Virus record (IMG/VR): IMGVR_UViG_3300034012_003212
Span: 62,001 to 126,000 of that record
DNA: 64,000 bases
Strand: one strand, 5' to 3'
Origin: a virus
The notes beneath the pieces were generated by a model. That model was not told where the DNA came from, did not search any database, and saw only the letters and a list, made by a program, of their open reading frames with translations. The translations under genes and the position numbers were made by a program. The stretch's first letter is position 1; each line of letters starts with the position of its first letter. This document shows positions 17,091 through 22,373 of the stretch, piece after piece.

Positions 17091-17779
17091 ACTATATTCC
17101 TTGGCCACCAATCATCTTTCTGTATACCCATGAGCTCTAAAACTAATTCCAGTTCCCGGTCTGCGTTTATCCTATTGGGTAATTGCCAGTGCTGGCTCCC
17201 AACGGGTTTGGTGTGCTTTACGACAACAGAATCAACTATTCCTAGACCTTCATACTTTAGTTCCTTTGCCCATATTATATCCTGCCCCCAGCCGGAGTAT
17301 GTGATCTTTAACGTCCATAGTAGATTCTTCAGGACCTCAGATTTAAACAATGGGCACATTATCTCGACAAAATTAGTCCTTCTGAATCCATTTTTATTCC
17401 TATTGACGACGAGTTCGAAGCTTCTAAAACTATCTTGTGACAATGACGGCTGGCATATATTGCAGTCATTTGATTCCGCCTCGTCGAATAATCTTACTAT
17501 GTCATCAACTGTACCAAAATCAACATCATAATCAGGAAGCCAGATGTACTTATACTTATTAAAAACTTCCGGCCAATGCGTGTTCAGTATATTGTACAGT
17601 ATATGGTGCTTGAACCCCTTGAATGAAAACGTCTTCATGGACTTTGAAATATCAAAATCCGGTGGTATTGTGTCGAACGATATGTGCGCAACATCGAATC
17701 CAGGGCCGCCGTACAAAGAATTGTAAAAGCCTCCTGGTGCTATCGTACACAACACTAGTCTATCGTTATTGCTTCGCAT
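17087..17779 (-). CDS. DUF707-like putative glycosyltransferase (GT-A)
   Basis: The 230-aa product has YKYIWLPDYDVDFG at about residue 76, the acidic strand-end motif of GT-A enzymes, followed by NFVEIMCPLFKSEVL near 136. GWGQDIIWAKEL near 163 and VVVKHTKPVGSQHW near 185 then carry the conserved Trp-Gly-x-Asp and His motifs that I associate with DUF707-type proteins. It probably transfers a sugar, with unknown donor and acceptor. It overlaps the 78-aa gene at its start and the 102-aa gene at its end. It lies about 230 bases from the dCMP hydroxymethylase-like gene, which makes modified cytosine one possible acceptor. Confidence 0.65.
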   Translation of the reverse strand: MRSNNDRLVLCTIAPGGFYNSLYGGPGFDVAHISFDTIPPDFDISKSMKTFSFKGFKHHILYNILNTHWPEVFNKYKYIWLPDYDVDFGTVDDIVRLFDEAESNDCNICQPSLSQDSFRSFELVVNRNKNGFRRTNFVEIMCPLFKSEVLKNLLWTLKITYSGWGQDIIWAKELKYEGLGIVDSVVVKHTKPVGSQHWQLPNRINADRELELVLELMGIQKDDWWPRNIV

Positions 17780-18002
17780 TCTGCTGCTTCTCTTGATTTG
17801 ACGACATTGACTCTATCGTCTTTGTCTTATCAAAAAATGTCACGGCGTCATATACCATCTTGGACTCCTGGAGTGTGTATGCGCCTCTTTGCTGAGCCCG
17901 CTCAACTGCACTTATGAGTATGTTGATCGCTTTTACTGGATCATCAACAACAAATTGAGGTTGTTCCTGTTGTTTTTCTGCCGTCGTATTTGTTTCTTCC
18001 AT
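17766..18002 (-). CDS. Small hypothetical protein
   Basis: The 78-aa product is polar at both ends with a central amphipathic helix pair (VKAINILISAVERAQQRGAYTL). The 'AQ-x-RG-A-Y-T-L' turn reminds me of small proteins in T4-like phages, but I cannot name the family. It has one of the clearer ribosome-binding sites in the window, AAGGAGT seven bases before the ATG, nine bases after the preceding gene. That suggests it is translated well on its own. Function is unknown. Confidence 0.6.
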   Translation of the reverse strand: MEETNTTAEKQQEQPQFVVDDPVKAINILISAVERAQQRGAYTLQESKMVYDAVTFFDKTKTIESMSSNQEKQQNAKQ

Positions 18003-18011
18003 CTTTACTCC

Positions 18012-18854
18012 TTATTTAAGTATGAATTTTTTTAATAGATTAAGATAATCCTGTTGTTTCATCGATTCTAATCTTTCTTTGTCCGATACTATGCATTCCA
18101 TCTCATTGATAAAAGCATCATTGTTTCCGTCAAAAATAGAAACAATGTTGAATTCATATGGGGTTTTTGCAAGTTCATCTGAATCAAAACCATCTACAAT
18201 CTTTTGTGCAACATCAAAATGCCTCTCGTAGTAGTGTGTGTTGTCAGAGAAATGGTGGTATGTGCCCAGTTTAATGTTTTCATACCCCCTCAACTTCAAT
18301 TGATGCAGCATCGATTGCTGTACTGTTGAGAAGAATGGCGCGTCATATTGCAGTCCATAGAATATATCGTTTGATCTCATCTGTACCTTCATGTTTAATT
18401 TCGAATCTCTGACCCAAAAATTAACATACATCGTACACACGAAATCTTTTACACCACTTTTCTGGTAATCAGGGGTGTTAAACACCATAACAGCTTGTCT
18501 TGTGTTTATATCATTCGCGAGACAGTCCAATGCCCACTGGAACTGATCATGATTCCTCTTTTGAATGATGTAGCCATAATTGGAATTTATGATTCCATTC
18601 ACTCTGAGATTATCCCAGAAATTAGAGAAGTGGCGGATCTTGTCAGTAGAAAGATCGCACAACATGTACCACCACAATTCTCCTGCAAAATATTTCCAGT
18701 TGAACTTCCTCGATGAGAAGTTCATGATACAGAGTCTGGGATCGATCTCTAGGTGTGTGAGAGTCTTTTCCCTCACCTTTAGGTTTCTTGGCGCACATTC
18801 ATCCTGCATTGTAATCAGAAGATCGTACACACACTGATTTAGGCTTTTAGGCAT
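18012..18854 (-). CDS. dCMP hydroxymethylase-like enzyme (thymidylate synthase family, T4 gp42-like)
   Basis: The 280-aa protein has the thymidylate-synthase-family core: INSNYGY at about residues 89-95, NTRQAVMVFN near 117, KDFVCT with the catalytic Cys140, and VQMRSNDI at 157-164. Thymidylate synthase has Asn177 for uracil, whereas T4 dCMP hydroxymethylase has Asp179. Here the equivalent residue is Asp171 (GLQYD), exactly 31 residues after the Cys, as in both families. The stretch from INSNYG to RSND reads much like T4 gp42 from memory. The predicted reaction is dCMP plus methylene-tetrahydrofolate to 5-hydroxymethyl-dCMP. Methylation of dCMP is the alternative. It lies 31 bases after the SGNH gene. 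Confidence 0.75.
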   Translation of the reverse strand: MPKSLNQCVYDLLITMQDECAPRNLKVREKTLTHLEIDPRLCIMNFSSRKFNWKYFAGELWWYMLCDLSTDKIRHFSNFWDNLRVNGIINSNYGYIIQKRNHDQFQWALDCLANDINTRQAVMVFNTPDYQKSGVKDFVCTMYVNFWVRDSKLNMKVQMRSNDIFYGLQYDAPFFSTVQQSMLHQLKLRGYENIKLGTYHHFSDNTHYYERHFDVAQKIVDGFDSDELAKTPYEFNIVSIFDGNNDAFINEMECIVSDKERLESMKQQDYLNLLKKFILK

Positions 18855-18884
18855 ATCTATTTTATAGATTTACTGACCGACTGT

Positions 18885-19967
18885 TTAAAAGAGCGCAACA
18901 GATCTGTTGGGATTTTGAAATTTATTCTTCTCGTCATTCTCAAAATTGTACTGATAACTGCTTCTTGAAAGATGCACGGATCCAGGCTTTTCCATGAATT
19001 TTGATGAGTATTCCTCTGGATCGATTGTATACCAAAAATCTGGCCATGTTATAGGGGCAAATCCCAATCTAGAACTATGTTCCATAAGTTCATCGTTGAA
19101 CAATCTCATAACATTGGATCGTTCTTCCCTTGAACCAAAGAATGGAGTTCCCTTGTACCAACCGGTTTTAGGTATACGTCTGTCCTCGTTTTCTATTGGG
19201 AGGAGGCACACAGGAGAAACAGTTTCAAGTTCGTACGAATCCATAAGTTTTACGAGGGATTCCATGTATTTGTTGCATAACTTTACGGCGGAATCCTGTG
19301 GATTAGATTCGCGAAGCAAATGGTGCCTAACATCTATATTACCGAAGTATGTTATGACATTCTTTGGGTAAACACCATCATAGATGAATTTGGATAAATC
19401 GCCGTCTTTTATGGCTCCATATAGCGTCTTTCCGTCGTTTCTATTTATGTTCGATCCAGGAACATACACTGAAACAGTGTGACTATCGCCCATGGCAAAC
19501 ACTTCGGATCGAAGGACGACTCGAACGGTTGGCACATTTGAACATATGTCACTGAACTGTGATGGATTCAATGATTTCCAAAAATCTTCACATGAGTTCA
19601 TCCTAGACAGAAGAACTGTTCCATAATCTGGCATTCTTTCATTCAAGCAGAATATGTCTCCGTTGAATATAGCCAGTCTGTTTATTCGATGTGCGTTTTC
19701 GTCACTCGCGCCCGAGAACATATTGAATGTTCCCTTATAGTCCATGGGAAGAAGGACTAGCCATGCGTCGAATTCATTCACGTCCTGTCCCTTTTCGAGT
19801 AACTTTGCATCAATTCCGGCGTGTCTCAGCTGATTGATGACAAGAAATGTCCAGGAGGATTTATGGCTTTCTGGCTTTTTGCTATACGTAGAAATAACGT
19901 CATCTACACAGACCTTTTTGCCATGCAATCTTTTTGATAGATCATAGACATCAATAAATGTTTGCAT
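18885..19967 (-). CDS. SGNH/GDSL-type hydrolase with an N-terminal extension
   Basis: Residues about 155-345 carry the SGNH blocks in order. FAMGDSHT near 157 holds the nucleophile Ser, YFGNIDVRHH near 207 holds the block III Gly-Asn, and GSVHLSR near 329 holds the catalytic His. The usual Asp three residues before that His is not present (sequence PGSVH). The first 150 residues form a separate domain, perhaps a Rossmann-like fold, of unknown role. SGNH enzymes remove acyl groups from sugars or lipids. ATG 19967 overlaps the preceding stop as TGATG; a GTG at 19970 is possible. A host-surface or virion glycan target is an inference. Confidence 0.65.
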   Translation of the reverse strand: MQTFIDVYDLSKRLHGKKVCVDDVISTYSKKPESHKSSWTFLVINQLRHAGIDAKLLEKGQDVNEFDAWLVLLPMDYKGTFNMFSGASDENAHRINRLAIFNGDIFCLNERMPDYGTVLLSRMNSCEDFWKSLNPSQFSDICSNVPTVRVVLRSEVFAMGDSHTVSVYVPGSNINRNDGKTLYGAIKDGDLSKFIYDGVYPKNVITYFGNIDVRHHLLRESNPQDSAVKLCNKYMESLVKLMDSYELETVSPVCLLPIENEDRRIPKTGWYKGTPFFGSREERSNVMRLFNDELMEHSSRLGFAPITWPDFWYTIDPEEYSSKFMEKPGSVHLSRSSYQYNFENDEKNKFQNPNRSVALF

Positions 19968-20263
19968 CACTTTCCATTCAGATAGTTTTCTAATGCCTGT
20001 ATGTATGCGACAGCATCCAAGAGATTATCTTGTTTATGTGTATAGCTCTCTCTGGATAGTTTTAGGGCTATCATGGCCTTGTACATGTGTTCTGCGTCAA
20101 GTGTTAGGCCAGTCATGCCATTGAATATTTGCGCAGCTCTCGCCATACCTTCCGAGAATGGTCCATACTGTCTTTCCTTTTCCTCCGACCTCTGGTTAAC
20201 TATTTTATCTGCCTGTTGCAGTATACTATCTTCATTGGTCTTTGTTTGTTTCTTGGGTTTCAT
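19967..20263 (-). CDS. DUF6378-like small protein
   Basis: The 98-aa product reads RQYGPFSEGMARAAQIFNGMTG at about residues 32-53 (reported here in pieces: RQYGPF, EGMARA, FNGMTG), then ALKLSRE and KQDNLLDAVAYIQALE. That matches the pattern of a small all-helical family common in phages (DUF6378), whose role is unknown. The helix pattern with Lys-x-Asp-Asn-Leu-x-Asp resembles MazG-type nucleotide pyrophosphatases, so nucleotide binding is conceivable but unproven. It sits between the DNA glycosylase and the SGNH gene. Confidence 0.65.
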   Translation of the reverse strand: MKPKKQTKTNEDSILQQADKIVNQRSEEKERQYGPFSEGMARAAQIFNGMTGLTLDAEHMYKAMIALKLSRESYTHKQDNLLDAVAYIQALENYLNGK

Positions 20264-20280
20264 ATGGTATAGTTATGATT

Positions 20281-20700
20281 CTAAAAGACTTCTTCTGTTT
20301 TTACCCATTCCATGTATTTTATCAGGACTCTGTCCTTTGGTTTAACGCGGTTGTCATGTCTTTGAAAAATCATCCATGAATCTCTTGCGTATTCCCCGAT
20401 TCCATGCAATTCACTAGGATCTTCCCCGTTCCACTGGAGCCATTCATTCGAGAATCGTATGAGCTTCTTTGAACGAATATTCTGAAACCCGAGTGGTTTT
20501 ATACATCGCGCGACTTCAATTGGATCTGCCTTAGATAATCTATCTGCATTGGGGTACTTTTCAAAAAATTCATGTCTGACCAGGTCAACTTGACGAAAAC
20601 TCGTCTGGTTCAACATCATGCAGACCACCAGCATCTTCCATGGATCATCTCGGTATATTTCTTGTCTCAGATTATACGGACTTAATTTAGGATGTTTCAT
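20281..20700 (-). CDS. HhH-GPD DNA glycosylase, MBD4-like
   Basis: The 139-aa protein is collinear over nearly its whole length with the catalytic domain of mammalian MBD4 as I remember it: SPYNLRQE and DPWKMLV (MBD4 SPFNLVQE, DPWKLLI), FFEKYPNA, PLGF, then the helix-hairpin-helix LHGIGEYARDS at 98-108. The catalytic Asp123 lies in KPKDRVLIKY (MBD4 HPEDHKLNKY). MBD4 removes T or 5-hydroxymethyl-U mispaired with G. No iron-sulphur cluster Cys set is present, unlike endonuclease III or MutY. It is the promoter-proximal gene of the cluster that includes the dCMP hydroxymethylase-like enzyme, and is divergent from the plus-strand gene at 20753. Confidence 0.85.
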   Translation of the reverse strand: MKHPKLSPYNLRQEIYRDDPWKMLVVCMMLNQTSFRQVDLVRHEFFEKYPNADRLSKADPIEVARCIKPLGFQNIRSKKLIRFSNEWLQWNGEDPSELHGIGEYARDSWMIFQRHDNRVKPKDRVLIKYMEWVKTEEVF

Positions 20701-20752: not shown

Positions 20753-21070
20753 TTGTACACCTTTTCTGATATAAAAAACGGACTTCACACGCTGAATGAA
20801 GCTTCAACTGAATTGAATTCTAGCCTCAAGAAAGTACACAAACTTGGGTTGGAGTTACAAAACATACAAAAAGATGTCATAGATTTGTATGAAGACAAAA
20901 AGAAAATTGACCCTAAGTCAAAGACACTGAAGAAGTTAGAAGCTAAGATAAATTCTTTGTTGAAGACGAAAGTAAACATTGAAAAAGAGATGGATCGAGA
21001 AACGAGAAAGCTCGAAAGACACATCTCGCAATTGGATCCACAGGGGAAAATTCAGAAATTTTTCACATAA
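20753..21070 (+). CDS. Small coiled-coil protein, TTG start
   Basis: The 105-aa product is almost entirely heptad-like helix, Lys/Glu/Leu-rich from about residue 10 to 95, with a Pro break at IDPKSK near residue 53, so it probably forms an antiparallel helical hairpin. No in-frame ATG exists before the helix. The frame opens after a TAG at 20735, so TTG 20753 is the likely start. It precedes the DUF3008-like gene by 12 bases, and the two share one terminator. A structural or scaffolding role is possible. The motif TLNEAS near residue 13 resembles prohead-protease sites but is weak evidence. Confidence 0.6.
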   Translation: MYTFSDIKNGLHTLNEASTELNSSLKKVHKLGLELQNIQKDVIDLYEDKKKIDPKSKTLKKLEAKINSLLKTKVNIEKEMDRETRKLERHISQLDPQGKIQKFFT

Positions 21071-21695: not shown

Positions 21696-21733
21696 AACCC
21701 GTTAGTTAGCAATAACTTACGGGTTTTTTATTT
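21696..21733 (+). terminator. Intrinsic terminator of the plus-strand pair
   Basis: A 13-bp stem with one mismatch (arms beginning AACCCGTT and ending TACGGGTT) closes on a GCAA tetraloop at 21709-21712 and is followed by TTTTTTATTT. It lies between the convergent DUF3008-like and RmlC-like genes. Confidence 0.9.
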
Positions 21734-22373
21734 ACACTTTATACCATTCACGATTTCTAGATTCATCACTCTCGCACCAATCATCAAACGATATGGCATT
21801 TGCATCCTTTTCTGAAAGTATCGGATCAATTCCTAGATCTTTCCAGTCACAATCAAATGAGTCCCATCTGATTGATCTTTCCTTTTCATGAAACCTGTTC
21901 TCGTCGCATTTATAGCAAACATCCGCAACATCACTTAGAACCTGAAACCCATTTGCAAAACCGCTAGGAATCCATACCATCTTTGGTTCATTATCATTTA
22001 GATGTATCTTCACATGCTTACCGAATGTAGGGGATCCTCTACGGAGATCTAGTTCAACGAGCAAGATCTCGCCCCTGACAACTCTTATCAGTTTCCCCAT
22101 ACCAAACATGTACTGAAAGTGCATACCTCGGATCACGCCACGCTTTGATCTTGAGTGATTATCCTGAACGAATGATCCCGGAAGATCGTTATACGCGAAT
22201 GAGATCTTATTGAAACTTTCTTGAAAGAAACCACGATCATCCTCAAATCTCTTTCCTGTTATGATTTCCACGCCACCGAGAACAACTTCTATGCTATCTA
22301 TTGCATTTTTGCTCATAAGGCTGATTTTCTTGTGTATTGAATCCAAGGATTCTCGTGAATTTTTTAGTTCCAT
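21732..22373 (-). CDS. dTDP-4-dehydrorhamnose 3,5-epimerase-like protein (RmlC fold)
   Basis: The 213-aa protein follows the RmlC pattern: DDRGFFQESF near residue 46, GVIRGMHFQ near 74 with the catalytic His, GKLIRVVRGEI and FGKHVKIHL as cupin strands, IPSGFANGFQVLS near 132, and SIRWD near 165. Two positions look unusual: the common GFAHGF reads GFANGF, and the Tyr pair before the final Trp-Asp is replaced (ENRF). Activity may therefore be altered to single-position epimerisation. The extra 30 N-terminal residues are not part of the cupin. AGGATG nine bases before ATG 22373 supports this start. Its product sugar may feed one of the phage glycosyltransferases. Confidence 0.8.
   Translation of the reverse strand: MELKNSRESLDSIHKKISLMSKNAIDSIEVVLGGVEIITGKRFEDDRGFFQESFNKISFAYNDLPGSFVQDNHSRSKRGVIRGMHFQYMFGMGKLIRVVRGEILLVELDLRRGSPTFGKHVKIHLNDNEPKMVWIPSGFANGFQVLSDVADVCYKCDENRFHEKERSIRWDSFDCDWKDLGIDPILSEKDANAISFDDWCESDESRNREWYKV

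Follow-up and report, generated by a model that had tools for sequence, protein, structure and literature searches.

A probable cytosine-modification cassette combining a dCMP hydroxymethylase-like enzyme with an MBD4-type DNA glycosylase in a T4-like jumbo phage

On deamination, 5-hydroxymethylcytosine (5hmC) and 5-methylcytosine (5mC) give 5-hydroxymethyluracil (hmU) and thymine opposite guanine, and ordinary uracil-DNA glycosylase (UDG) recognizes neither product. Phages with 5mC or 5hmC in their DNA face this damage beyond the reach of UDG, and no description of their protection was found in the literature searched. Human cells repair deaminated 5mC with MBD4. The human enzyme acts on G/T and G/U mismatches and on hmU (PMC5406665). 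In the deoxycytidine monophosphate (dCMP) hydroxymethylase encoded by gene 42 of phage T4, a ternary-complex study attributed dCMP specificity to the Asp179-type residue and the activation of water for hydroxymethylation to the Asp three positions before the catalytic Cys (Cys-3) (PMC6400193). Thymidylate synthase (TS) mutants with Asp at the Asn177 position alone methylate dCMP (PMC8670742). Phage AXL1 is a sister phage of Xp12, in which every cytosine is 5mC; AXL1 DNA is refractory to almost every enzyme whose site contains C, and one AXL1 gene, which is MBD4-like, is reported to occur elsewhere only in Xp12 and encodes a protein to which the authors could assign no function (PMC9206674). 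Here we describe a gene run that encodes both an MBD4-type glycosylase and a ThyA-family enzyme of the T4 gene 42 kind. It lies in a 64,000-nucleotide stretch (the window), bases 62001-126000 of the 260,658-base IMG/VR virus record IMGVR_UViG_3300034012_003212. With a probability of roughly 0.6, the run is a cytosine-modification cassette with which the phage produces 5hmC and excises hmU, formed by deamination of 5hmC, from hmU:G pairs by means of the glycosylase.

The ThyA-family protein of the window is strongly inferred to be a dCMP hydroxymethylase making the precursor of 5hmC. Its top match in the PDB is the T4 enzyme (1b49, E 1.8e-18), and the best TS follows at 2.7e-9, so that nine orders of magnitude separate, in this sequence comparison, T4 dCMP hydroxymethylase from the next solved relative type. 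The initial annotation had called the protein dCMP hydroxymethylase-like because Asp171 stands 31 residues beyond the catalytic Cys140; the open reading frame (ORF) and the spacing are as it claimed, and the same interval separates Cys148 from Asp179 in T4 and Cys146 from Asn177 in Escherichia coli TS. To this can be added Asp137 at Cys-3, which corresponds to T4 Asp145 and is Leu in thymidylate synthases, together with Ser91 and Tyr93, the equivalents of T4 Ser94 and Tyr96. The features of a TS acting on deoxyuridine monophosphate (dUMP) are lacking: Asn177 and the Cys-3 Leu are replaced as described, the Trp83 position is Leu, and the protein ends in LKKFILK with no TS-type C-terminal tail. 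In a 37-row tree, which carries the tool's long-branch warning, the enzyme joins the T4-type enzymes from 44RR and IME13, and every Asn-type TS falls outside this group (support 99/95). The catalytic Cys, the cytosine-reading Asp, the Cys-3 Asp, the Ser/Tyr pair and the missing tail are thus shared with T4 gene 42 (PDB 1b49, 6a9b, 6l18). The window enzyme is a remote relative of the T4 enzyme in sequence, and differs from it in having a longer C-terminus and Gln in place of T4 Arg124, the second phosphate-binding Arg.

The supply of thymidine monophosphate (dTMP) points the same way. A separate ThyX is encoded by the same phage (E 1.4e-49), unlike in T4, and both a dUTPase and a dCMP deaminase are present, the latter where it had been placed earlier, at 54.7 kb; a ThyA is therefore not needed for dTMP. 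The four signature residues, the tree grouping and the supply of dTMP by ThyX all argue for a hydroxymethylase and not a TS. The notion of an ordinary dUMP thymidylate synthase with an Asp acquired by chance has family membership in its favour and the closest structure, the signature residues, the tree position and the ThyX elsewhere in the genome against it; we regard it as highly improbable. A cytosine-5 DNA methyltransferase was also considered as the source of modification and was discarded, as none was found in the phage.

The first gene of the run encodes a protein of 139 amino acids (aa) whose 15 top PDB matches, with E-values from 4.5e-30 to 1.4e-27, are MBD4 without exception. It is collinear with the vertebrate MBD4 catalytic domain over residues 4-133, some 130 residues, and is separated from the ThyA-family gene by two genes, both as the initial annotation had stated. 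The next family in the search is the archaeal G-T mismatch glycosylase MIG (PDB 1kea), far behind at E 4e-4, as are MutY and endonuclease III (EndoIII). A profile built from 18 sequences of the phage family again placed MBD4 first (1e-42), followed at 1.7e-15 by an EndoIII. E-values as low as those of the MBD4 and hydroxymethylase matches are not due to chance. Catalytic Asp123 corresponds to human D560, Tyr104 to Y540 and Gln13 to Q449; across 59 distinct phage sequences, the equivalents of D560, Y540 and N467 are invariant (59/59) and that of Q449, which reads thymine, is kept in 57. Tyr104 occupies the position of the EndoIII lyase Lys, and the two Cys of the whole protein are too few for an iron-sulphur (Fe-S) cluster; a monofunctional pyrimidine glycosylase is therefore expected. 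The marks of EndoIII and MutY, namely the Fe-S Cys set and the Lys (EndoIII) or Ser (MutY) of the helix-hairpin-helix (HhH) motif, are lacking, and scores fall far below the NCBIfam cut-offs. MIG shares the HhH fold, a Tyr in place of the lyase Lys and a role on T:G and U:G, although it matches much more weakly and, unlike the window protein, has an Fe-S cluster. In contrast to vertebrate MBD4, the protein is phage-encoded and consists of the glycosylase domain alone, with no methyl-CpG-binding domain. Outside phages, a single-protein search of bacterial genomes gave no match, and a profile search gave three weak relatives in metagenome-assembled genomes. A large group of the MBD4-like phage proteins (L022, L029, L033, L042 and relatives) is extended at the C-terminus by some 110 aa that match no Pfam family.

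Among the 50,697 records of a named-phage collection, an MBD4-like gene occurs in five distinct phages, AXL1, DoCa6, YB23, Donnerlittchen and cyanophage S-TIM54, and all five also have a ThyA-family gene with Asp at the Asn177 position (Asp-type ThyA). Xp12 itself is not in the collection, so its link is that reported by PMC9206674. In the first four, all Bradleyvirinae (AXL1 belongs to Bosavirus), the MBD4-like gene lies inside an operon that also encodes a nucleotide pyrophosphohydrolase, a dCMP deaminase and the Asp-type ThyA; a dihydrofolate reductase (DHFR) is annotated in the operons of AXL1 and Donnerlittchen. Their relatives DLP4, DoCa10, PaMx74 and Mallos have the same operon minus solely the MBD4-like gene, which is thus a presence/absence cassette at that spot. 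Sister phages with the gene (AXL1, DoCa6, YB23) and without it (DLP4, DoCa10) at one position provide an unusually clean comparison. Since the MBD4-negative relatives carry the same Asp-type ThyA, the named phages amount to about two independent lineages and not five. Other phages, the Xp12/AXL1 group above all, bear out the association of an MBD4-type glycosylase with C5-modified cytosine that was proposed initially from the window. The phages of 5mC type with the same pairing had not been foreseen, nor had ThyX, Asp137 and the nature of the two intervening genes.

The ThyA of the AXL1 group differs from that of the window in its Asn at Cys-3, in a tail like that of TS and in a DHFR nearby, which together with its tree position all fit a putative dCMP methylase yielding 5mC; this assignment is probable. 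By these sequence assignments, MBD4-type glycosylases are found alongside two kinds of ThyA enzyme, one probably a methylase (5mC) and the other probably a hydroxymethylase (5hmC). It could be asked whether the window enzyme is likewise a methylase and its glycosylase repairs T:G. The sufficiency of Asp at position 177 for dCMP methylation in TS mutants and the presence of the MBD4-like gene in the Xp12/AXL1 group would suit such an enzyme, whereas its Cys-3 residue is Asp, not the Asn of the AXL1 group or the Leu of TS, it clades with T4-type enzymes and not with AXL1, and it has no TS-type tail. We consider a methylase improbable here and retain the hydroxymethylase. The AXL1 operon resembles the window run in bringing together an MBD4-type gene, a nucleotide pyrophosphohydrolase (a candidate in the window) and an Asp-type ThyA; it differs in that its pyrophosphohydrolase is of PF01503 rather than DUF6378, and in having no SGNH gene. 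Cyanophage S-TIM54 (OP053362, 145421-146233) is a candidate modified-cytosine phage: besides its MBD4-like gene and ThyX, it has a gene of the C5-methyltransferase family and an Asp-type ThyA in which the Cys-3 residue is Cys.

Uncultured phages were surveyed by a profile scan of IMG/VR, which gave 392 MBD4-like relatives, of which 80 were kept and examined. One contig (L016) repeats the window order of MBD4-like gene, DUF6378, 361-aa protein and ThyA, the ThyA being 63% identical. In records of at least 90 kb picked by their MBD4-like gene, an Asp-type ThyA was present in 8/9 (S-TIM54 included, G004/G005 taken as one), often next to a normal Asn-type TS. The control consisted of large contigs picked by UvsX irrespective of MBD4-like or ThyA genes, and replaced a terminase-based scan that had yielded two contigs. 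There, an Asp-type ThyA was found in 5/6 contigs with an MBD4-like gene versus 2/9 without (Fisher p 0.04), the positive contigs being larger than the negative ones, so that size confounds the association. All survey contigs combined gave 13/15 versus 2/9 (Fisher p 0.003), the phages being related to one another. Eight of the 13 positives belong to a divergent ThyA class with Arg at Cys-3 and a putative activity only; with this class set aside, the figures are 5/15 versus 2/9, no clear excess. The operon evidence is the stronger because of size, kinship and this class. Members of the class (G006, G007, G008, G009, G026, G037, G039, G040, G041) have Asp177 and the motif PEDTGxxHGERVPC, are usually next to a normal thymidylate synthase, and show no evident catalytic Glu in the alignment. 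In two of these records, G007 (L122, L125) and G037 (L235, L240), an apparent intein splits the Asp-type ThyA exactly at the catalytic Cys.

Beyond the confounding by size and the weight of the divergent class, other observations count against repair of deaminated 5hmC. The Arg468 finger, with which human MBD4 senses T:G, is Gln32 in the window protein, and the position is Gln in 51, Leu in 7 and Cys in 1 of the 59 phage proteins; human MBD4 R468Q loses activity (PMC12073362). In one 170-kb contig (G045), the sole ThyA accompanying the MBD4-like gene is an ordinary TS, another contig of 174 kb (G003) has the gene and no detected ThyA, and many phages have a dCMP hydroxymethylase and no such glycosylase. 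A T4 gp56-type dCTPase was looked for in the phage and none was found, so full replacement of cytosine is not established. Because the finger is absent, the protein is labelled MBD4-type and not MBD4, and the phage enzymes would find their target somewhat differently or favour another mismatch; mainly for this reason the proposed substrate is tentative, as is the purpose, the fold, the residues of the pocket and the genomic linkage being what points to it. A rival reading is a general uracil-excision enzyme that replaces a missing UDG, its cytosine-modification company being a by-product of large or nucleotide-rich genomes. No UDG was found in any of the 16 MBD4-like phages checked, the finger Gln is that of MutY, and G045 and the dUTPase and dCMP deaminase of the window phage are in keeping with such a role. 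Against uracil excision stand the position of the gene inside a cytosine-modifying operon in Bradleyvirinae, its tight linkage in the window and in L016, and a sequence much nearer MBD4 than EndoIII-type enzymes. It is an unlikely alternative, though the one that deserves most attention. The MBD4-type protein is best explained as serving the repair of deaminated modified cytosine, a reading supported by its operon position in two unrelated phage kinds, one of which is linked to known 5mC DNA.

Under the 5hmC-repair reading, the genes from 20700 to 18012 would act as a cytosine-modification cassette in a T4-like jumbo phage. The product of the ThyA-family enzyme would enter DNA as 5hmC, while dTMP would be supplied separately by dCMP deaminase and then ThyX. 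The DUF6378 protein might conceivably lower deoxycytidine triphosphate (dCTP), and the SGNH protein might perhaps decorate the base. Where 5hmC deaminates, the MBD4-type protein would hydrolyse out the altered base via Asp123 and, being monofunctional, leave an abasic site to be processed by repair enzymes of the host or the phage. Such a glycosylase in a modification operon would answer how modified-cytosine phages protect themselves. If true, the pairing of C5 modification with an MBD4-type enzyme would not be confined to eukaryotes and would form a viral parallel of 5mC and MBD4, and small Fe-S-free glycosylases might serve as tools. No prior report of this pairing in phages was found in the open-access literature, most subscription journals being outside that scope, so priority cannot be claimed.

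The record carries genes for a T4-type terminase, portal, sheath, UvsX, gp32 and a family-B DNA polymerase, with phage genes throughout, and is therefore taken to derive from a T4-like jumbo phage. Six minus-strand genes, in the 5'-3' order MBD4-like, DUF6378, 361-aa protein, ThyA-family enzyme, 78-aa protein and DUF707 protein, form a run from 20700 to 17087 (Table 1). Neighbouring genes are no more than about 30 bases apart and some overlap slightly, and likely genes of the opposite strand begin at 20753, upstream of the MBD4-like gene. From this spacing, the run is very probably one transcription unit starting at the MBD4-like gene.

Table 1. Features of the gene run and of the associated nucleotide metabolism (window coordinates unless stated).
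Feature	Location	Strand	Evidence or remarks
MBD4-type HhH DNA glycosylase, 139 aa, first gene of run	20281..20700	-	PDB and profile matches, residues
DUF6378 protein, 98 aa, all-helical	19967..20263	-	Candidate nucleotide pyrophosphohydrolase
SGNH/GDSL-fold protein, 361 aa	18885..19970	-	Motifs GDSH, GNIDVRHH, MEKPxSVH; candidate 5hmC decorator
ThyA-family putative dCMP hydroxymethylase, 280 aa	18012..18854	-	Cys140, Asp171, Asp137, Ser91, Tyr93, Glu59
78-aa protein	17766..18002	-	Same run, directly after ThyA-family gene
DUF707-type (glycosyltransferase-like) protein, 230 aa	17087..17779	-	Same run; 26.5 bits, cut-off 24.1
dCMP deaminase, 178 aa	54653..55189	-	Would feed dUMP to ThyX
ThyX	record 154252-154854, outside window		E 1.4e-49

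Foldseek matched the predicted structure of the 361-aa protein (predicted local distance difference test, pLDDT, 82) to SGNH/GDSL esterases and acyltransferases with a probability of 1.00. The protein shares their G-D-S, G-N and S-x-H blocks; unlike those enzymes, it has extra N- and C-terminal parts, and it gives no match at the sequence level. Relatives occur in 43 named phages, mainly T4-like Aeromonas phages, and the two that were checked, 44RR and IME13, both have a T4-type dCMP hydroxymethylase. The protein is a candidate, no more, for an acyl- or esterase-type enzyme decorating 5hmC, also in 44RR-type phages. A speculative extension, doubtful as a whole, is that MBD4-type partners for deamination repair were acquired more than once by phages with 5-substituted cytosine, and that a new SGNH enzyme here further decorates 5hmC. 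In several contigs, the SGNH gene adjoins the MBD4-like gene, and in 44RR ORF233c (NC_005135, 160422-162809) a single protein combines an SGNH domain with a region that bears a weak resemblance to the helical domain of 5-hmdU DNA kinase (17.2 bits, below the cut-off). Both facts would suit an HhH protein that helps to build a hypermodified base, or that attacks host or rival DNA, and has no part in repair. Such a function seems improbable, as the hydrolytic Asp and the base pocket are fully conserved and the 44RR fusion region gave no alignment to the MBD4 profile; on the same grounds, an SGNH-MBD4-like fusion in 44RR was rejected.

In several phage lineages, DUF6378 borders on or overlaps a dCMP hydroxymethylase gene. 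In G010/G025 and G011 it is adjacent to or overlaps an Asp-type ThyA gene, and in G001 it is close to one, a position resembling that of the AXL1 pyrophosphohydrolase. By this analogy of position, a nucleotide pyrophosphohydrolase removing dCTP, as T4 dCTPase gp56 does, is a reasonable guess. Its predicted structure is poor (pLDDT 66) and a fold search from that model gave no match; nor did its profile match the AXL1 pyrophosphohydrolase or the PDB. Four glycosyltransferases had also been cited as fitting a modified-nucleotide economy. Glycosyltransferase-type genes do exist, two of family 2 in the window in addition to the DUF707 gene, but the support they lend is weak: the phage also has nucleotide-sugar genes (RmlC at 21732-22373; a nucleotidyl transferase, an epimerase and DegT elsewhere), so the glycosyltransferases need not act on DNA.

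Two other regions of the record contain repeated genes. At 197-222 kb, about 40 paralogous ORFs stand in tandem, each 130-170 aa long and with a common CSQEALDSFGSL-like motif, and at 7-19 kb there are many short paralogous ORFs that start MNLENVG and contain W/SV repeats.

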